NCBI RefSeq assembly: GCF_007741535.1
Contig: NZ_CP036525.1
Location: 682,001 to 746,000, forward strand
Source of the DNA: Rubripirellula lacrimiformis
Lineage (GTDB): Bacteria; Planctomycetota; Planctomycetia; Pirellulales; Pirellulaceae
DNA length: 64,000 bases
Direction of reading: 5' to 3'
This document shows positions 40,011 through 64,000 of the stretch, piece by piece (the first letter of the stretch is position 1; every line of letters starts with the position of its first letter). The translations under genes were made by a program, and so were the position numbers. Under the pieces are notes generated by a model, which searched no databases, had not been told where the DNA came from, and worked only from the letters and a program-made list of their open reading frames with translations.

Positions 40011-40708
40011 TGTGGTGTGTCCAATGGTTCAGCGAAACTGGTCAACCGGTTCGGCAGGGAAGGTGAGGGCAGGCTGGTGGCGAGACTCTGGGCGAATTCC
40101 GCAACGGATGGTGGGAACGTTCGATTGGAACCGGTCTGCCCGGTCGCTCGCCCTTTCGGACCGAGATTGGTCAAACGTCTGTTGGTGGGATGTCGGTCAT
40201 GATGCGGGCAGCGTGACTGCGCCGTCGGTGCTCGCATGATCGTGTCGTTCTTCTCTGTCGCCCGAACCTCGTTGCACGATTTGTCGGGCACAGTGGAGGA
40301 CTTGATCGCATCCATCTTAGCTGCATTGTGCATTCGAATGGGCATCCGGCCGCCGGGTTTCTGAAAGACCAAAAACAACCTGACCCCGTCGGATGATGCT
40401 CGTGGATTGTGGATTGTGGGGCGTGGGATTGAACAAGCTCCGCTGGCTTCCCGGCCAACGCGTCATCGTGGTTCATCGGATGGCTGCGTGTTTCGAAGCG
40501 ATCGTTGGATCCGAACTGCCGGTGGTTGATAACGCTTCGTGTCGAAGACGCTAGGTTTTCGGTTTTCGATAGGATATGCTGATGATCGGGGCGAGAAAGG
40601 GGGGCGTAAGGCAAAGCGAGAAGTTCAATCGCGAAGCCGTTTCTAAGCAGATGTTGTTTCCGGAAACAGCGTCATCTTCATCTAATGCGACAAGTTGTTG
40701 GCACATCT
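40011..40708. other. Intergenic region of about 700 bp, no gene supported
   Basis: This gap separates the minus-strand transporter from the plus-strand sulfatase and marks the left edge of the catabolic island. Overlapping short frames on both strands are low-quality. It should hold the promoters of both genes; no clear repeat or hairpin was found. Confidence 0.5.
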
Positions 40709-42199
40709 ATGAAACATCACCTTTGGGTCGTTCACGTACTTGTCTTTGGAATTTTGGTCTCGCGCGGCTTTGCTGCTGAACCGCCAAATGTTGTTTTCAT
40801 TTTGAGCGATGATCATCGATTCGATTTCATGAGTTGCATCGAAGGTTGTCCCGAATTCTTGAAGACGCCCAACATGGACCGGATTGCCAGCGAAGGAGCG
40901 GTTTTCAAGAACGCATTCGTTTCGACCTCGCTTTGTTCGCCCAGTAGAGCGTCGATATTGACGGGCCAATACATGCACCATCATCGCGTGGTGGACAACC
41001 AGCGGGATGTGCCGGTCGGTACCCGGTTCTTTCCCTCGGACTTGCAGTCCGGCGGATACAACACGGCCTTTGTCGGCAAGTGGCACATGGGGCATGACAG
41101 TGATGAACCCCGCAGCGGATTTGATTACTGGGCTAGCTTTCTGGGGCAGGGCGTCTATCACGATCCGACGCTGAACATCAACGGCAAACAAAACTCGTTT
41201 TCAGGGTACACCACCGATGTGCTGACCGACCTAGCAATCGACTGGCTGCGGGATCGTGATTCGTCGGACAAGCCGTTCTTCTTGTATCTGTCTTACAAGG
41301 CGGTTCATTACCCATTCACTCCGGCGCCTCGCAATCAAGGCAAGTACAAAGACGAACCGATTGACTATCCCGAGACGATGGCCAATACCGAGCGGAATTA
41401 TCGCACCCAACCGAATTGGGTGCGGAATCGTCGCTACAGTATTCACGGCATCGACCACATGGAAACGGGTGCATTTGATAACGACCCCGTGCCGGACTTC
41501 GACGATCTGTACCACGCTTACGCGGAAACTGTGTTCGGGCTGGACGAGAACGTTGGTCGCGTTCTGGACTACGTCGACCAAGCTGGCCTTCGTGACAACA
41601 CGATCGTGATCTACATGGGCGATAACGGTTTTGAATTGGGCGAGCATGGATTCTATGACAAACGAGATGCCTTCGAGCACTCTATCCGTGTGCCGATGCT
41701 TGCCAGAGCACCGGGCAGAATCGCTGCGGGGACGATCGTCGAGGAAATGGTTCAAAACATCGATGTTGCGGCGACGATCTTAGACGTCTGTGATGTGCAG
41801 CCGTCCAAGGATGTTCAGTTTGATGGAAGATCGATGCGGCCACTGTGGGAAGAGACCGCCGAATCCAAACAAGCCCTTGCGGATTTGCCGTGGCGGGATC
41901 ATCTGTTGTACGAATACCACTGGGAATGGAATTTTCCCGCAACGCCAACGACGTTGGCGATCCGGACGGATCGGTTCAAGTACATCTACTACCACGGGGT
42001 CTGGGACCAGAACGGGTTCTACGATCTGAAAACAGACCCGCACGAGCGGCACAATTTGATTGATGTGCCCGCGTATCAGCAGCAGATCACTTCGCTGCAG
42101 AATCAACTGTTTGACGAGCTGCAGACGTCCGGCGGATTGGCTTTACCGATCCGTCCACCTGTGGGGGAAAGGCTTGGGCAACGCAAACTGCCCAGATAA
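40709..42199 (+). CDS. Secreted sulfatase (type I, formylglycine-dependent)
   Basis: A signal peptide (VHVLVFGILVSRGFAA) is followed by the sulfatase start PPNVVFILSDDHR with metal-binding Asp residues, and the signature LCSPSRASILTG in which Cys76 is the residue converted to formylglycine. FVGKWHMG and MGDNGFELGEHG follow at the expected places. It should act in the periplasm or outside, removing sulfate esters from glycans or small molecules. An in-frame ATG at 40685 exists; 40709 gives the cleaner signal peptide. It is the first gene of the plus-strand run 40.7-45.8 kb. Confidence 0.93.
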   Translation: MKHHLWVVHVLVFGILVSRGFAAEPPNVVFILSDDHRFDFMSCIEGCPEFLKTPNMDRIASEGAVFKNAFVSTSLCSPSRASILTGQYMHHHRVVDNQRDVPVGTRFFPSDLQSGGYNTAFVGKWHMGHDSDEPRSGFDYWASFLGQGVYHDPTLNINGKQNSFSGYTTDVLTDLAIDWLRDRDSSDKPFFLYLSYKAVHYPFTPAPRNQGKYKDEPIDYPETMANTERNYRTQPNWVRNRRYSIHGIDHMETGAFDNDPVPDFDDLYHAYAETVFGLDENVGRVLDYVDQAGLRDNTIVIYMGDNGFELGEHGFYDKRDAFEHSIRVPMLARAPGRIAAGTIVEEMVQNIDVAATILDVCDVQPSKDVQFDGRSMRPLWEETAESKQALADLPWRDHLLYEYHWEWNFPATPTTLAIRTDRFKYIYYHGVWDQNGFYDLKTDPHERHNLIDVPAYQQQITSLQNQLFDELQTSGGLALPIRPPVGERLGQRKLPR

Positions 42200-43315: not shown

Positions 43316-44389
43316 GTGCAGATCAACGAAATTCCAAAGCCGATTCGCGACAGCGTTCAGAAGGGAATCGTTATCCCCGCAATGCCGTTGGCGTTGGACG
43401 CCCAGCGTGGTTTGGATCGGCAGTGCCAAGCCGCGCTAGCACGGTACTATATCGACGCGGGTGTGGGTGGCATCGCAGTGGGGGTTCACACCACGCAATT
43501 CGCAATCCGTGACCCCGGCATCAATTTGTTCGAACCGGTTTTGAAGCTCACTTCCGAAGTGATCGACGACTATTCAGCGGCTCAGGGCCGACATGTTTGG
43601 AAGGTTGCCGGCGTCTGTGGAACGACCCAGCAAGCGGTCCGGGAAGCGACGTTTGCTGTCGACCATGGCTACCACAGCGGTCTATTAAGCCTCGCCGCGC
43701 TTGCAGGCGAAAGCCACGACAAGCTGCTGGACCATTGCCGCGAAGTGGCTGCTGTCATTCCTGTGATCGGGTTCTATTTGCAGCCAGCTGTGGGCGGATG
43801 CAAGTTGCCGTATTCGTTTTGGCGTGAATTCGCGGAAATCGAAAATGTGATCGCGATCAAGATGGCGCCGTTCAACCGCTACCAAACATTGGACGTGGTT
43901 CGTGCCGTCTGTGATTCCGGATGCGAAGACAAGATCACGCTGTATACCGGAAACGATGATAACATCATTGTCGATTTGTTGACCGAATACCGAATTGCTT
44001 GTGATGCGGGGCCAAAGTCGGTCCGCATCCGCGGTGGTTTATTGGGGCATTGGAGCGTTTGGGCTCGGGCGGCCGTCGAATTGCTTGACGAAGTGCATGC
44101 TGTGGTCGCCAGCGGCAACGGGGTCCCGTCGGAATTGCTTCGACGCAACATTGAATTGACGGATTGCAATGCGGCGTTCTTCGATGCGGCAAACGATTTC
44201 GCCGGCTGTATCCCCGGGATTCACGAGGTCTTGCGACGTCAGGGATTGATGCGAGGAACTTGGTGCCTGGATCCCAACGAGGTCCTTTCCCAAGGACAGT
44301 CTCAGGAGATCGATCGAGTGACAAAGGCGTACCCGCATCTGAACGACGACGGGTTTGTGCAGGACAACCTACGCCGGTGGTTGTCGTGA
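43316..44389 (+). CDS. Dihydrodipicolinate synthase/N-acetylneuraminate lyase family protein
   Basis: The 357-residue protein is a DapA/NanA-type TIM barrel. The Schiff-base lysine is Lys182 in VIAIKMAPFNRYQ, and the tyrosine before it is in GFYLQPAVGG (Tyr154). At this length it exceeds ordinary DapA (about 290), as do sugar-acid aldolases and dehydratases of the family. It starts with GTG at 43316, preceded by GGGA. Its close link to the epimerase and the sugar-catabolic context argue for a 2-keto-3-deoxy sugar acid rather than lysine synthesis; this is inference. Confidence 0.82.
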   Translation: MQINEIPKPIRDSVQKGIVIPAMPLALDAQRGLDRQCQAALARYYIDAGVGGIAVGVHTTQFAIRDPGINLFEPVLKLTSEVIDDYSAAQGRHVWKVAGVCGTTQQAVREATFAVDHGYHSGLLSLAALAGESHDKLLDHCREVAAVIPVIGFYLQPAVGGCKLPYSFWREFAEIENVIAIKMAPFNRYQTLDVVRAVCDSGCEDKITLYTGNDDNIIVDLLTEYRIACDAGPKSVRIRGGLLGHWSVWARAAVELLDEVHAVVASGNGVPSELLRRNIELTDCNAAFFDAANDFAGCIPGIHEVLRRQGLMRGTWCLDPNEVLSQGQSQEIDRVTKAYPHLNDDGFVQDNLRRWLS

Positions 44390-53200: not shown

Positions 53201-56020
<2,820 letters not shown>

Positions 56021-57383: not shown

Positions 57384-57535
57384 TTCCCATCGCCAGTGTC
57401 CAGTTGCGCTGGTTGATCCCACCCATTCCCTCGGTCGTCCGATTGGCTCCGCATTCTTTTTTTGTTCCACCGTCAAGCGATCGAGTAATCGTCCGCAATC
57501 GGACCAGGTAGCACAACAACATGAAAGGTTCGTTC

Positions 57536-59149
57536 ATGCCACGACAATTTTGCTCACAGATCTTGGTCGGTTTGGTTCTTGCGATCTGTCCTGCACTTCA
57601 CGCCGCTCAGCGTCCCAACATCATCGTCATCATGGTGGACGACATGGGGTTTTCCGACATCGGGTGTTACGGCGGCGAGATCCCGACTCCGCATTTAGAT
57701 TCGCTGGCGACAGGCGGCGCACGGTTTTCGCAGTTTTACAACACCGGTCGATGTTGCCCCACGCGAGCCTCGCTGCTGACCGGTCTGTATTCTCATCAAG
57801 CGGGCATCGGTTGGATGACCACGGACCAGGGAGTTCCTGGGTACGCGGGGCGATTGAATGATCAGTGTGTCACGATCCCCGAGGTTCTCGGTGGGGCCGG
57901 CTACTTCACGGCGATGACGGGAAAATGGCATGTTGGATTCAATCACGGAGTCACTCCGTGGGGCCGCGGTTTTGATCGCTGTTTAAGCTTGCCGGCGGGA
58001 GGTTTGCATTTCTCCAATCAAACAGGATCCAAGGGCGGCACGAAGTTGTTTCTCAACGGCGAGGAAGTTTCGCGAGACGACCCCCAATTCAATCCGCCAT
58101 GGTACGGAAGTGATCTGTGGACCGAGCAGGGGATCAAGTTCGTCGATGAAGCAATCGCAGAGAACAAGCCTTTCTTTTGGTATCTCGCTCACGTCGCGCC
58201 GCACTTTCCTTGCATGGCTCCGGAGGCAACGATCGCCAAATATCGGGGGACCTACATGAAGGGGTGGGACGTCCTGCGCGAAGAACGCTACGCACGTCAG
58301 GTCAATGCAGGGTTGATCGACAAGAACTGGGATATGGAACCTCGGCCGGACGAAATACCGGCTTGGGATTCGCTTTCCCCCGAAGAACAAAAACGCTACG
58401 ACGACATGATGGCGATCTACGCCGCGATGATTGACGAAGTCGATAAGAATGTTGGCAAGCTGGTTGATGCTCTCACCAAACGTGGGCAACTGGACAACAC
58501 CCTGATTCTGTTCCTGGCCGATAACGGTGGCAACGCGGAAGCGGGAGTGAAGGGGAAGTACAACGGAGACAACCCGGGCGATCCGCACTCTGATGTGTTC
58601 ATCGGCCGCTGCTGGGCCCATTTAAACAACACGCCATTTCGGAAATACAAACACTACAACCACGAAGGTGGAACGGCATCGCCATTGATCGCTCATTGGC
58701 CTGCTGCGATCAAGTCACGCACTGGTTGGGTTGAAACGCCCGTTCATTTGATCGACGTCATGGCAACTTGCGTCGATCTTGGTGAAGCCAGCTATCCGGC
58801 TGAGTTCAAGGGCCACATCATCACGCCTGCACAGGGGCAGAGCCTCAAGCCATTGCTGACTGCCAGCGGAACCTTTTCCGATCGCCCACTGTTCTGGGAA
58901 CACGAAGGGAACGCGGGAATACGCGTCGGAGATCGCAAATTGGTTCGGCTGGGCATGAAAGGCGAATGGGAATTGTTTGACCTGAAAGCTGATCGCACCG
59001 AGCAGGAAAACTTGGCGGCGGAAAACGTCGACGAAGTCCAATCGCTCAGTCGTCAGTGGCGGCAATGGGCAAAGTCGGCCAACGTGTTGCCCAAGCCGGA
59101 ACCAAAGGCGAAGAGGAAAAGAAGACAACCCAAGGACGCGGCAAAGTGA
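57536..59149 (+). CDS. Secreted arylsulfatase
   Basis: The 537-residue protein has a signal peptide (ILVGLVLAICPALHA), the sulfatase start RPNIIVIMVDDMGFSDIGCY with paired metal-binding Asp residues, and the signature RCCPTRASLLTG, where Cys73 fits the C-x-P-x-R site for formylglycine. Later motifs TGKWHVG and FLADNGGNAE are in place. It follows the arylsulfatase A-like layout with a lysine-rich C-terminal tail (KPEPKAKRKRRQ). The second ATG, 57536, is chosen because AAAGG lies eight bases upstream; 57521 is the alternative. Confidence 0.94.
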   Translation: MPRQFCSQILVGLVLAICPALHAAQRPNIIVIMVDDMGFSDIGCYGGEIPTPHLDSLATGGARFSQFYNTGRCCPTRASLLTGLYSHQAGIGWMTTDQGVPGYAGRLNDQCVTIPEVLGGAGYFTAMTGKWHVGFNHGVTPWGRGFDRCLSLPAGGLHFSNQTGSKGGTKLFLNGEEVSRDDPQFNPPWYGSDLWTEQGIKFVDEAIAENKPFFWYLAHVAPHFPCMAPEATIAKYRGTYMKGWDVLREERYARQVNAGLIDKNWDMEPRPDEIPAWDSLSPEEQKRYDDMMAIYAAMIDEVDKNVGKLVDALTKRGQLDNTLILFLADNGGNAEAGVKGKYNGDNPGDPHSDVFIGRCWAHLNNTPFRKYKHYNHEGGTASPLIAHWPAAIKSRTGWVETPVHLIDVMATCVDLGEASYPAEFKGHIITPAQGQSLKPLLTASGTFSDRPLFWEHEGNAGIRVGDRKLVRLGMKGEWELFDLKADRTEQENLAAENVDEVQSLSRQWRQWAKSANVLPKPEPKAKRKRRQPKDAAK

Positions 59150-59188: not shown

Positions 59189-59414
59189 TCAACCGGTGGG
59201 AATCGGTTCGCCAGGGCAGGCCTCTGCCAATGGCGTGATACAATTCATGCCGCTGAACAAGCTTGCCCATGGGAACCGCAGTGGGGGGGCAAGCGATCGA
59301 GGCTCTCCACCCGCGAACCCGGACCTTGCACGAGCCGCCTGTGTCGGTGAGGCGAAAATGGGGGGCGTGGCAGCGACAAACACCTTTCTCTCGTTGCGTT
59401 TGATTTGGAAGAAC

Positions 59415-62309
59415 ATGTTGAACAGACACTCCCTGCCCGTTTGCTGTGCTTGGTTGTTCGCAACTGGGATGCTGATTCCTTGCTCGGCCGCGGATGCTGG
59501 CGACCGCCCCAATATCGTGTTCTGCATGGCCGATGACTGGTCGTGGCCGCACGCTGGGGTTCTAGGGGATCCCGTCGTCAAAACGCCGAACTTTGACCGC
59601 GTGGCGAACGAAGGTGTGCTGTTCCCCAACGCGTTTGTTTCAACGCCATCTTGTACGCCCAGTCGTCTAAGCGTTCTGACCGGACAACATCACTGGCGAT
59701 TGAAAGAAGGCGACAGTCTTGGGGGATCGCTACGAGAAGACTACGACGTGTACACCGAGATGCTGCAGAAGTCGGGTTACCATCTGGGACGTTTCGGCAA
59801 GGGAGTCTGGCCCAGCGAGCATACCTTTCGCAAACGAGATTCATTTGGCCAGCGTTACCGATCCTTTGACCAGTTCATGAAGGATCGCAAGGCGGATGAA
59901 CCATTTTGCTATTGGCATGGTGGTTCGGACCCCCATCGTCCATACGAACTGGGGATCGGAAAGAAGAGCGGAATCGACTTGACGAAGATCCCGATTCCGG
60001 CCTGCCTGCCCGATAACGAGGTCGTCCGGGGGGATGTCGCCGACTATTTGTGGGAGGTGCAACGTTTTGATCGAGAGGTCGGTGAGATTCTTCAAAAGCT
60101 GGAGGCGATCGGCGAACTGCAGAACACGATTGTGGTTGTCAGTGGCGACAACGGTATGCCGTTTCCTCGTTGCAAAGCAACGCTTTACGACCAGGGAACT
60201 CGCGTGCCGTTGGCGGTTCGTTGGGGGGCGAAGGTGAAGGGCGAACGAACGGTGACGGATTTTGTCAGCCTTTGCGATCTTGCCCCGACATTTCTTCAGG
60301 CAGCCGGTTTGGACGTTTCTACTCAGATGACCGGTCGCAGTTTGTTGAGCATTCTTCAATCCGATCAATCCGGGACGGTCGACGCTACTCGCACGTTCGC
60401 TCTGGCCGGCACGGAGAAACATGTTTACGCGTATCCGAGACGGTCGCTGCGAACCAGCGATTTCCTGTACATCCGCAACTTTGACCCGAGCGCATGGGCA
60501 ACCGGGCAACATGGTGCCGGGACCGAACAGTACGACTTTGCCAAGAATCCTTGGCCGACGGGCAAAGGGGCGTTTTCCTATGCGATCGATCCGTCGCCAA
60601 CCAAACAACTGCTGCGGCTGCAGCGCCACCAATCGCAGGTTCAACCGTTTGCTGATCTGGCCTTTGGGCAGCGGCCCGACGAGGAACTGTACGACCTGGC
60701 GGACGACCCCGACCAACTTCGCAATGTCGCCGCGAAACCCGAATACGCCAGTGCGCTTACCCGTCTTCGACAGCAGTTGACCGCTGAATTGATCAAGAGC
60801 AATGATCCGCGAGTTTCCGTGGCCGGGTATTCGTCGCGTGACGTGGAAGGCTGGCCGGTTCGCGTCAGTGACCGGCTGATCAGCGAAAAGGGTGACGAGA
60901 CGGATCGTGCACTTCAGTTGCTGGCGTCGCAACTGCAAACCGTCAAACAAGTGGTCCCACCATCAGCGCTTGGCCGCATCATCAACGTGCCGATTTGGTT
61001 GTCACCACCCTACGAAGGAGTTCGGCCAACGGGCGAGTACCATCCGGGATCGGCGTGGCTGAAACGACAGGGACGCCCAAGTGCTTTGCACCAATGTGTG
61101 GAGTTTACCAACACGGCCATTTTTGATCGTGAAATCAAACGCATGCCTGTGATGGTGCTGCATGAACTCGCACACGCCTACCATGATCAGGTGCTCGGGA
61201 ACGACAACAAGGAAATTGCAGAGGTCTTCGCAAGCGCCAAGGAAAGCGGGATCTACAACATGGTTCAGCGGGAAAATGGAAAGACCGAACGGGCCTATGC
61301 GATTACGAACCCGATGGAATATTTTGCTGAGTTGACGGAAGCGTTGTTTGGACGCAACGATTTCTATCCCTTCGATCGCGCTCAGCTGCAAAGGCATGAC
61401 CCCGCCGCCTACGACGTGCTTGTGCGTCTGTGGAAAACAGAGTCTGTCGATTCGGCTGATGAAACGGCGCACTATCGAGTCGAAAAGCCGCCGGCCGACC
61501 TGCGATTGAAACCCTTTTACGAAAAGTATGTTGACGCCAGCGGTTATCCGATCATCGCCTCGTCCAAGGTCAATGATTTTGCGCTTCTAGAGGCTGCCTA
61601 CCTGGTCGACATGATGCTGGCCAAGCGACCCGACATCCGGGCAGCAATGGTCGCCAGCGGATCACGGCTGATCGTGATGGCGCACGACGAATTCACGACC
61701 GACATCCCCGAACACTCGCATTTACGCCCCAGCGATTACTGGGACGCAAGAGCACGCGGGTTAGGCGGATCGCGGGATGAACCCGTTTGTTCGTGCGGCG
61801 AAGAGAATCTGCTCGGTTTCGACGGGGATCCCTATTCAACCGAGAATATTCTGATTCACGAGTTTGCGCACAATATCCATTTGCGCGGTCTCGTGAATCT
61901 GGACCCGGCGTTTGACGATCGATTGAAACTGGCGTACGAACAGGCGATGAAACGCGGCCTTTGGAAGGGAAAGTACGCGTCGACCAACCACGCCGAGTAC
62001 TTCGCCGAAGGTGTGCAGTCATGGTTCAACAACAATCGACAACCCGATCACGATCACAACCACGTCGATACGCGAAGCGAACTGCAGGAATACGATCCCG
62101 GGCTGGCCGCGATTTGTAAAGAAGTTTTTGGACCGACACAGCTGGTCTATACCAAACCGGCAACTCGAATCTCGGGGCACCTTGAAGGTTACGATCCTGA
62201 ACAATCGCCTCGTTTCCAGTGGCCAGCACGACTCAAGCAAGCCAAGTCGAAGATCCGGAACGATACGACGAAACGTGGCACGAATCGACAAAAAGAATAC
62301 AAGAATTAG
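59415..62309 (+). CDS. Sulfatase fused to two tandem HExxH zincin domains
   Basis: The 964-residue protein begins with a signal peptide (VCCAWLFATGMLIPCSA) and a type I sulfatase domain to about residue 460: NIVFCMADDWSW and the formylglycine signature SCTPSRLSVLTG (Cys80). Two metallopeptidase-like domains follow. The first has HELAHAYHD (583-591) with EYFAE (635-639); the second has HEFAHNIH (815-822) with EYFAE (861-865). The shared HExxH...EYFAE pattern shows that the two are related. A sulfatase with two zincins acting outside the cell on a sulfated glycoprotein or mucin-like substrate is an attractive inference. The frame is open to 59196; the ATG at 59415 gives the signal peptide. Confidence 0.9.
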   Translation: MLNRHSLPVCCAWLFATGMLIPCSAADAGDRPNIVFCMADDWSWPHAGVLGDPVVKTPNFDRVANEGVLFPNAFVSTPSCTPSRLSVLTGQHHWRLKEGDSLGGSLREDYDVYTEMLQKSGYHLGRFGKGVWPSEHTFRKRDSFGQRYRSFDQFMKDRKADEPFCYWHGGSDPHRPYELGIGKKSGIDLTKIPIPACLPDNEVVRGDVADYLWEVQRFDREVGEILQKLEAIGELQNTIVVVSGDNGMPFPRCKATLYDQGTRVPLAVRWGAKVKGERTVTDFVSLCDLAPTFLQAAGLDVSTQMTGRSLLSILQSDQSGTVDATRTFALAGTEKHVYAYPRRSLRTSDFLYIRNFDPSAWATGQHGAGTEQYDFAKNPWPTGKGAFSYAIDPSPTKQLLRLQRHQSQVQPFADLAFGQRPDEELYDLADDPDQLRNVAAKPEYASALTRLRQQLTAELIKSNDPRVSVAGYSSRDVEGWPVRVSDRLISEKGDETDRALQLLASQLQTVKQVVPPSALGRIINVPIWLSPPYEGVRPTGEYHPGSAWLKRQGRPSALHQCVEFTNTAIFDREIKRMPVMVLHELAHAYHDQVLGNDNKEIAEVFASAKESGIYNMVQRENGKTERAYAITNPMEYFAELTEALFGRNDFYPFDRAQLQRHDPAAYDVLVRLWKTESVDSADETAHYRVEKPPADLRLKPFYEKYVDASGYPIIASSKVNDFALLEAAYLVDMMLAKRPDIRAAMVASGSRLIVMAHDEFTTDIPEHSHLRPSDYWDARARGLGGSRDEPVCSCGEENLLGFDGDPYSTENILIHEFAHNIHLRGLVNLDPAFDDRLKLAYEQAMKRGLWKGKYASTNHAEYFAEGVQSWFNNNRQPDHDHNHVDTRSELQEYDPGLAAICKEVFGPTQLVYTKPATRISGHLEGYDPEQSPRFQWPARLKQAKSKIRNDTTKRGTNRQKEYKN

Positions 62310-62341
62310 GTTCTGTCGAACTCTTTTGCGAGCCATTGCGA

Positions 62342-62640
62342 ATGCACAAAGCAATCTTCTCGACCCTGGCAATGATGGGGCTGTGGCTATCGCCGGCGGT
62401 CGCTGTTGCCGAGGCCGACAAGCCTAATGTCTTGTTCATCGCCGTCGACGACCTCAATGACTGGATCGGTTGCTTGGGCGGTCATCCCCAGGCAAAGACG
62501 CCGAACATCGACCGGCTTGCGGCCAGCGGAGTGCTCTTTACGAATGCACATTGCCCCGCTCCTGCCTGCAATCCTTCACGCAGCGCGATCATGACCGGCA
62601 TTTCGCCTCATGTGTCTGGGCTTTACGACAACCGCAGCAG
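62342..62640 (+). pseudogene. Sulfatase gene truncated by insertion element
   Basis: An ATG at 62342 begins a signal peptide and a normal sulfatase N-terminus: KPNVLFIAVDDLNDWIGCLG and APACNPSRSAIMTG, with Cys76 in the C-x-P-x-R site. The layout is of the iduronate/choline-sulfatase type. Similarity stops after GLYDNR (about codon 98, base 62635), and the frame runs into unrelated DNA leading to a transposase gene, ending at 62716. The rest of the sulfatase should lie beyond the element, outside the window. It starts 32 bp after the fusion gene. Confidence 0.8.
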
Positions 62641-64000
62641 TTCCCGGCGGTTGGCTAAATCCCGTAAAATACGGTGTGGTGATTTGCTAGCGTGTCGCGA
62701 TTGGATGAAGCCTTGATTGGAGCCGGGGGTTGACGCTCCAATGGACGGCTTTCGCTCTCGTCCAAGGCGATCGATCATGACCCGTCCGGCGCCCCCGTTC
62801 CCCAAGTTGCGGCGATTCCTTTGCGCTGATGCACTCATCGATACGTTACGCCGGAGATTTCAATCGGTCCCCGACGCGCGGGAACAATCCGGGACGGTTT
62901 ATCCAATGGTGGATACTCTCTTGGCTGCGTTTGCGATGTTCTCACTCAAAGACCCATCACTGTTAGCTTTTGAAGAACGGTCCGGCGAACCTGCCATCAA
63001 ACGACTCTTCGGGATCGACGCTATTCCCAGCGATACGTCCATGCGAGAGATCCTTGATGGTATCGATACAAGTCATCTCAACGAAGCCTTTGCAGACATC
63101 TTCCACGAACTTCAACGCGGGAACGTCCTGCGAGAGTTCGCGTTCCACAACAATCATTACCTGCTAGCGATCGATGGCACTGGATACTTCTGTTCCTCAA
63201 AGATCCATTGCCCCGAGTGCTTGGAACGTAAAACCAGTGGTGGCAAGATTCAGTATGTGCATCAAGCGGTTGCCGCGGTGCTCGTTCATCCCGACCAGAA
63301 AGTCGTCATCCCACTGGCAATCGAACCCATCGTCAAACAAGACGGAGAAACCAAAAACGATTGCGAACGCAATGCGACACGACGCCTATTGAGGCGAATT
63401 CGCTTGCTCTATCCGAAGATCAAGCTGATCGTGGTCGAAGACGGACTGGCCAGCAACGCTCCGCACATCGCCGACCTGAAAGATCTGAAGATGAGTTACT
63501 TGCTCGGTGCAAAACCGGGTGACCACGCTCACTTGTTCGATCAAGTGATTGCTGCGGGCGACGAAGACCGAATCGAAACACTCACACGGGTTGACCCGAT
63601 CGGTAACCGCGTCATCCAAAGCGAGACCCAGTACGTCAGTGACCTGGCGCTCAATGCGTCGAATCAATCTCTGCGAGTGAATTTTCTGCAGCACTTTGAA
63701 TACGACAACGATAGCGGCGAAGTGAGCAAGCGATTCAGTTGGGTGACGAACGTCACGTTAGATCGTTCGCTGCTATCGAAATTCACCGCGGGAGGTCGTA
63801 GTCGCTGGCGGATTGAGAATGAGACGTTTAATACGCTCAAGAATCAAGGCTATCACTTTGAACACAACTACGGTCATGGAAAGCAAAACCTATCAACGGT
63901 ACTGATGCTGCTGATGTTTTTAGCGTTCATGGTTGACCAAGTACAGCAAGCATGCTGTCCGCTGTTTGCCTCGGTGCAGGAGAAGTTCAAGAGTCGCCGA
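62636..64000 (+). mobile_element. Insertion sequence, left part (right end outside window)
   Basis: The left border is set by where the sulfatase similarity stops, near 62636. The element contains a leader with a small palindrome (CCGTAAAATACGG near 62668) and a transposase gene that continues past the window. Terminal inverted repeats and the target duplication cannot be checked because the right end is missing. Confidence 0.7.
62777..64000 (+). CDS. DDE transposase (IS4-like), 3' end outside window
   Basis: The frame is open for 408 codons from the ATG at 62777 to the window end; an in-frame ATG at 62741 is possible. A likely DDE triad is Asp133 in LAIDGTGYF, Asp222 in VVEDGLASN and Glu347 in SRWRIENETFNTLK, the last resembling the YREK region of IS4-type transposases. 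The long spacing to the Glu holds an inserted beta domain, as in IS4 relatives. It is transcribed in the same direction as the sulfatase gene it interrupts. No frameshift is seen, so it may be active if the 3' end is intact. Confidence 0.85.
   Translation, partial: MTRPAPPFPKLRRFLCADALIDTLRRRFQSVPDAREQSGTVYPMVDTLLAAFAMFSLKDPSLLAFEERSGEPAIKRLFGIDAIPSDTSMREILDGIDTSHLNEAFADIFHELQRGNVLREFAFHNNHYLLAIDGTGYFCSSKIHCPECLERKTSGGKIQYVHQAVAAVLVHPDQKVVIPLAIEPIVKQDGETKNDCERNATRRLLRRIRLLYPKIKLIVVEDGLASNAPHIADLKDLKMSYLLGAKPGDHAHLFDQVIAAGDEDRIETLTRVDPIGNRVIQSETQYVSDLALNASNQSLRVNFLQHFEYDNDSGEVSKRFSWVTNVTLDRSLLSKFTAGGRSRWRIENETFNTLKNQGYHFEHNYGHGKQNLSTVLMLLMFLAFMVDQVQQACCPLFASVQEKFKSRR

Follow-up and report, generated by a model that had tools for sequence, protein, structure and literature searches.

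On what kind of substrate would a single protein act that joins a sulfatase to two peptidase-like domains? This question is raised by a gene in a stretch of 64,000 nucleotides from the planctomycete Rubripirellula lacrimiformis (RefSeq assembly GCF_007741535.1, contig NZ_CP036525.1, positions 682,001 to 746,000 of the forward strand; hereafter the window), whose product comprises an S1 formylglycine sulfatase domain (S) followed by two HExxH zincin domains (A and B). We infer, at a probability of about one half, that it is a secreted chain degrading sulfated glycoproteins rich in proline (Pro) or hydroxyproline (Hyp), in which S would remove sulfate and both zincin domains would serve as proline- or hydroxyproline-directed endopeptidases. 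What the analysis shows directly is the architecture, its conservation, the predicted fold of domain B and gene linkage.

Architecture of the fusion protein

The reading frame is uninterrupted over 964 residues, with no stop in the translation, and contains what the original prediction had described: a complete sulfatase with Cys80 in CTPSR and two HExxH domains, each with a downstream EYFAE (Table 1). An alternative upstream GTG start at 59196 gives a longer frame; the ATG at 59415 yields a Sec-like leader, recognized by eye, in agreement with the secretion that had been proposed. The fusion is present as a single copy in its genome (8.54 Mb, one contig). Pfam detects Sulfatase (2e-31, 109.9 bits, cut-off 25) and SGSH_C (6e-17) in the whole protein. 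A full-length structure model based on a 22-row alignment has a mean predicted local distance difference test score (pLDDT) of 58, and therefore no mutual placement of the three domains is claimed.

The sulfatase domain carries the C-x-P-x-R formylglycine motif, which together with the Pfam match identifies it as an S1 sulfatase. By sequence, its nearest solved chain is S1_8A, followed by an N-acetylglucosamine-6-sulfatase, S1_8B and then N-sulfoglucosamine sulfohydrolase (SGSH). The S1_8 sulfatases of the lambda-carrageenan pathway and SGSH share with it the formylglycine motif and the metal- and sulfate-binding residues, whereas the solved S1_8 chains (514-651 residues) have no peptidase domain. 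The likeness to solved sulfatases is too low for the sugar substrate to be named.

The two zincin domains are mutually related, as the original prediction had proposed, with 27% identity over 139 columns in BLASTP (E 1e-7) and a profile-profile probability of 98.8 (E 6e-17 over 99 columns). Over the whole protein, the Pfam family ATLF is matched at 6.5e-8 (32.9 bits, above the cut-off of 27.4) and Peptidase_M90 at 4.6e-6 (26.8 bits, cut-off 26.2); the single domains score below both cut-offs (A 20.2 and B 18.4 bits for ATLF, 17.8 and 22.5 for Peptidase_M90), and no NCBIfam model was reported on A or B. Structure comparison placed the predicted fold of B, itself of the zincin type, nearest to the Pro-Pro endopeptidases (PPEPs) and then to lethal factor. 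When the domains are considered apart, a PPEP-like fold is thus found for B; for A a zincin fold is suggested by homology to B, and the sole structural matches covering A are whole-chain lethal factor ones, which span both domains and are weak (root-mean-square deviation about 18). In each domain HExxH is followed further on by a Glu, with a Tyr seven positions ahead of that Glu (Y628/E635 and Y854/E861), the ligand role of the Glu having been assigned by analogy with Glu197 of PPEP-3 and the role of the Tyr by analogy with its Tyr190. On these models A and B resemble gluzincins of the PPEP and lethal factor kind, with predicted peptidase activity, so that the zincin assignment of the original prediction holds, in a form that is not generic.

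PPEP-1 (Zmp1), PPEP-2 and PPEP-3, of the MEROPS M34 group, have the zincin fold in common with B, and HExxH, the Glu ligand and the Tyr at Glu minus 7 in common with both domains; they are also extracellular. The solved PPEPs are short single units of about 170-215 residues, whereas here tandem domains accompany a sulfatase, and their identity to B is 14-18% in the aligned part. The N-terminal copy of anthrax lethal factor (Pfam ATLF) is not catalytic; here, both domains retain HExxH and Glu, the partner is a sulfatase and relatives occur in environmental genomes. No sign of a toxin role was seen in the present protein.

Conservation and spread

A homologue search with residues 465-964 gave 6695 proteins at E <= 1e-3 (7979 scored), of which 120 were listed. 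The three-domain architecture, which the original prediction had suggested seeking in other planctomycetes, is present in 25 among these 120, a count that takes in the protein itself (P0001), one with a partial sulfatase (P0014) and two with a second sulfatase (P0002 and P0031). By our own domain profiles, the 120 comprise 73 A-B, 23 S-A-B and 20 B-A proteins. The other four are single cases, namely B-A-A, S-S-A-B, S-S-S-A-B (with two sulfatases, one of which the profile split) and B-B-B-B (where the eye finds three copies, one of them split); some of the A-B entries may be fragments ending at a contig edge. The first domain boundaries gave extra motif-less A matches, which were tails (7 in sulfatase-fused and 16 in other proteins), and the boundaries were redrawn. 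Most of the 120 carry no source name, several are called 'hypothetical protein', two 'MtfA' and one 'arylsulfatase A-like enzyme'.

An end-to-end alignment of 22 of the 25 sulfatase-fused proteins gave a mean pairwise identity of 71% in S, 66% in A, 37% in the linker and 80% in B. Invariant in all 22 are the sulfatase residues D40, D41, C80, R84, K129, H136, H174, D245, N246 and K254, which, C80 apart, presumably bind metal or sulfate as in the family, as well as H583, E584, H587, Y628 and E635 of A and H815, E816, H819, Y854 and E861 of B. Four of the profiled copies depart from the motif pattern: on inspection by eye, those in P0095, P0115 and L109 still have HExxH, the Tyr and the Glu, the difference lying in the letters that follow the Glu, and the fourth belongs to P0120, which has three B-type copies in 782 amino acids, the middle one with an altered HExxH. 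The S-A-B arrangement is a conserved family, more than a one-off.

The A-B profile is matched in 154 of 199 same-family genomes at E <= 1e-20. Among the thirteen same-genus genomes listed, that of the window included, an S-A-B frame of more than 1000 amino acids occurs in six (G000, G046, G092, G167, G181 and G193), and G159 has a 666-residue frame with a shortened sulfatase part. Proteins P0003, P0014 and L084 likewise have A and B whole and the sulfatase part shortened or mostly gone, possibly an effect of decay or assembly. Sulfatase-free proteins with A-B, B-A, A alone or B alone occur in Planctomycetota, in Verrucomicrobiota and in a small number of other groups; their peptidase domains show 52-76% identity among the listed matches, some of which cover only half of the query, and some are fused to DPPIV/S9, SASA, DUF885 or other domains. 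A short stretch ahead of the A/B domains looks VHL beta-like by eye in P0058, P0031 and L116; in P0031 it lies between the two sulfatases, and Pfam reported none in P0031 or L116.

Duplication and fusion history

Every copy scores higher with its own profile (136/136 for A, 205/205 for B), and both subfamilies also occur without a sulfatase, as A-B and as B-A proteins, and in frames that hold just one of them. Whether duplication came after or before fusion had been left open in the original prediction. Because A and B are distinct subfamilies that occur sulfatase-free, in both orders and with other enzyme partners, they most likely separated before being joined to the sulfatase. The A tree unites 25 of 28 sulfatase-fused tips in one clade (support 0.96); fused copies in the B tree are mixed with B of other proteins, the best group holding 27 fused among 43 tips, so that B may have been exchanged later and a single fusion event would be only one possible history. 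Alternative joins have also been detected, namely S-B in L039 (and in L098, whose identical scores suggest that it may represent the same genome) and, in L031, L032 and L041, a B domain ahead of a sulfatase with a low S-profile score. A DPPIV/S9 domain, a second proline-directed partner of B, is fused to it in 10 of 70 B loci, which partly repeat (L052, L054, L055, L057, L058, L062, L066, L071, L073 and L075).

Linkage to proline and hydroxyproline genes

In the window genome, a single-copy gene for Xaa-Pro dipeptidyl-peptidase, scoring 771.5 bits against a cut-off of 642, lies 3.85 kb past the fusion. The same gene is found downstream of the fusion in six of the seven informative loci of those examined; L002, L003 and G167 end too early to inform, and contigs of the remaining sulfatase-fused homologues are outside this count. 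Five loci of Rhodopirellula or Rubripirellula (L004, L005, L006, L015 and L021) have the same-strand order sulfatase (its end), sulfatase, S-A-B, sulfatase, M1 aminopeptidase with HEAT repeats, Xaa-Pro dipeptidyl-peptidase, the genes of L005 having been identified with Pfam and NCBIfam and the others by similarity. L005 holds an extra Pfam-less gene between the first two sulfatases, and the last gene of L006 is partial. At the expected M1 place of the window genome, no open reading frame (ORF) of at least 180 amino acids was found.

Relatives add a hydroxyproline component. L007, a Verrucomicrobiales locus with a two-sulfatase-A-B fusion, contains a cis-3-hydroxy-L-proline dehydratase (643.7 bits, cut-off 500), together with two genes that score below their cut-offs, one Xaa-Pro-aminopeptidase-like (249.7 against 465) and the other 4-hydroxyproline-epimerase-like (423.6 against 442). 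The order in L009 is A-B, a DHDPS-family gene, DUF885, a hydroxyproline-epimerase-like gene (423.8, cut-off 450) and a D-amino-acid-dehydrogenase-like gene (287.9, cut-off 383), a set that we take to represent the enzyme classes of 4-hydroxyproline breakdown. In an unselected scan of 94 neighbouring ORFs from 17 loci (14 A-B, two B-A and L007), the dehydratase was the commonest NCBIfam match (5), with 4-hydroxyproline epimerase found twice, like several other families. When 17 genomes were searched (those of 16 scanned loci, with L019 replacing L030), the dehydratase scored above its cut-off in 11, as a single copy except in G207, and lay inside the fetched locus in five of the 11 (L007, L008, L012, L013 and L014).

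Among 248 genomes of the class, A-B was matched in 152 (E <= 1e-60) and the dehydratase in 144 (E <= 1e-100). Within the listed matches, both occur in 91 genomes; in 18 of these, at most 3 kb separates an A or B gene from the dehydratase, on one strand in 18/18, with 0.15 expected. A control family from the same superfamily as the dehydratase, NF010624, lies within 3 kb in 0/65 (nearest 9.9 kb), and Pro_racemase lies within that distance on the same strand in 2/89 (0.14 expected). The dehydratase annotation is supported by a Pro_racemase gene within about 2.5 kb of it in G570, G527, G552, G604 and G612. The dehydratase also adjoins a DPPIV/S9-A frame in L117 and L120, a B-A-DUF885 frame in L116 and, in other genomes, frames that have A and lack B. 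The linkage test was tried as well in the phylum of the L010 genome, where A or B at E <= 1e-60 was found in only 10 of 240 genomes, too few for it.

Proposed function and alternatives

In the proposed mechanism, the sulfatase, activated by formylglycine at Cys80, would strip sulfate from the glycan, as expected from its family, and A and B would then cleave the uncovered protein chain at bonds involving Pro or Hyp. Judging by the fold and catalytic set, each domain would use one zinc held by HExxH and the downstream Glu, with the Tyr as oxyanion helper. The neighbouring genes suggest that the Xaa-Pro dipeptidyl-peptidase, joined in relatives by the M1 aminopeptidase, would trim the resulting peptides; in other A/B-bearing bacteria, a hydroxyproline epimerase or dehydratase may consume the freed hydroxyproline. 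One candidate substrate class is that of the green-algal hydroxyproline-rich wall glycoproteins (described in PMC10762512).

A number of observations weigh against this reading. The profile of A and B matched no solved chain at E <= 10. Fold likeness does not prove Pro-Pro specificity; CD1597, a PPEP-like protein with an intact HExxH, is reported to have shown no Pro-Pro activity (PMC11460543). Most of the remaining families matched by the neighbouring ORFs have no relation to proline. The formal Poisson P of 3e-31 for the linkage ignores relatedness and, since the 18 genomes belong to 11 genera in 5 families, overstates independence, though not the direction; the 18 include G648, from which L012, the source of the idea, is taken. 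The two genes are not within 3 kb of each other in 73 of the 91 genomes, where contig breaks hide some cases. Closer to the fusion itself, the dehydratase lies about 2 Mb away in the window genome, is absent at the threshold in five of six same-genus genomes with the full fusion (G046, G092, G167, G181 and G193) and, in genomes of its own family, is within 3 kb of a listed A/B gene only in G111, G143 and G162 (by eye). In G159, with its shortened sulfatase part, the Xaa-Pro dipeptidyl-peptidase is on a different contig. As the dehydratase is far from the fusion or absent in these genomes, the fusion's own link to proline is the Xaa-Pro dipeptidyl-peptidase, and the link to hydroxyproline comes from relatives and L007.

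The pairing of sulfatase and protease fits a glycoprotein substrate, as had been proposed, and the mucin-like substrate suggested with it is no longer the best guess, because the gene neighbours of the fusion and its relatives favour a proline/hydroxyproline-rich protein. A mucin-like or glycosaminoglycan-bearing substrate cut with no proline preference, which would not predict such neighbours, therefore appears rather unlikely, even though the sulfatase resembles S1_8, a subfamily that includes SGSH, and a chain named N-acetylglucosamine-6-sulfatase, and the SASA esterase is another fusion partner of A-B. The nearest solved chains also speak against it, S1_8A and S1_8B having been assigned, largely from structures, to the galactose-2-sulfate of lambda-carrageenan (PMC12549532). 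The PPEPs being the nearest fold, and PPEP-1 being reported to cut adhesion proteins (PMC11460543), A and B could instead release or mature bacterial surface proteins while the sulfatase sets the cell free of sulfated polysaccharide, which would amount to detachment and not feeding; this is unlikely, since linkage to exopeptidases of the Xaa-Pro type, to an M1 aminopeptidase and to genes of hydroxyproline catabolism suggests complete degradation.

It is also improbable that only one zincin cuts and the other, A sooner than B, is a binding module or regulator comparable to the N-terminal domain of lethal factor. The lower conservation of A and the weak lethal factor matches spanning both domains would agree with such a role, but A has all five of its catalytic residues unchanged in 22/22 and the dehydratase adjoins frames with A and without B. 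An assembly or annotation artefact, with two genes wrongly joined, is refuted in effect: nothing was found for it, the same frame occurs in other genomes and metagenome proteins, of which 22 align end to end, and the genome is a single contig.

Beyond the degradation of a sulfated Pro/Hyp-rich glycoprotein by the fusion, a broader and more tentative proposal is that A and B form a large unnamed branch of the PPEP/lethal factor fold that opens Pro/Hyp-rich glycoproteins for food, with the sulfatase fusion as the version for sulfated ones. Substrates might then be extensin- or AGP-like walls of algae, or else the 3,4-dihydroxyproline-containing wall protein of diatoms. If true, this would constitute a dedicated planctomycete route into the protein-bound algal carbon pool, would offer a testable function for a peptidase branch with thousands of matches and would suggest that sulfatases, of which planctomycetes have many, may in part act on glycoproteins and not on free polysaccharide. 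The protein itself appears to carry tandem copies of a lethal factor-type fold with both active sites retained. In the literature covered (titles and abstract openings, from a set with few subscription journals), no description of the fusion and no link between these domains and hydroxyproline was found.

Gene neighbourhood and features of the window

Further sulfatase genes flank the fusion (Table 1). A separate sulfatase ORF is close to 14/15 S-A-B, 18/70 B and 2/3 B-S loci and to the S-S-A-B locus, and to 0/17 A-B, 0/3 B-A and 0/2 S-B loci, in counts where some loci represent the same genome twice and loci vary in length. The downstream sulfatase is split by an insertion, and the rest of it lies beyond the window, at L112:8382-9806 (region L112:6718-9806).

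Table 1. Positions in the window of the fusion gene, its parts and the adjacent genes.
Feature	Positions	Strand	Basis or remark
Sulfatase-zincin A-zincin B fusion gene	59415..62309	+	964 aa
Probable Sec signal peptide, ~residues 1-26	59415..59492	+	Hydrophobic leader and AxA-like end, by eye
S1 formylglycine sulfatase domain, ~residues 31-469	59505..60821	+	Pfam, alignment; nearest solved chains S1_8A/S1_8B
CTPSR, starting at residue 80 (Cys80)	59652..59666	+	Motif; formylglycine conversion predicted from family
Zincin domain A, ~residues 470-680	60822..61454	+	Motifs, domain profiles
HELAH of A (583-587)	61161..61175	+	Tyr628 at 61296-61298
EYFAE of A (635-639)	61317..61331	+	Glu635 predicted third zinc ligand
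Zincin domain B, ~residues 693-955	61491..62279	+	Pro-Pro-endopeptidase-like predicted fold
HEFAH of B (815-819)	61857..61871	+	Tyr854 at 61974-61976
EYFAE of B (861-865)	61995..62009	+	Glu861 predicted third zinc ligand
Upstream sulfatase gene	57521..59149	+	PF00884 1.9e-56
Downstream sulfatase gene, first part	62342..62716	+	Cut by insertion sequence; ORF 62219-62716, start a chosen internal ATG
DDE transposase gene (DDE_Tnp_1) of the insertion	62717..64000	+	Extends beyond window end

Two other regions of the same window may be mentioned. A sulfatase-like gene (40685-42199) and a weakly matching DHDPS-family gene (43316-44389) are located 15-19 kb upstream. On the reverse strand, an ORF of 939 amino acids (53201-56020) matches Pfam AAT (acyltransferase) at 384-501 and has a C-terminal part that looks alpha/beta hydrolase-like by eye, possibly another fusion.

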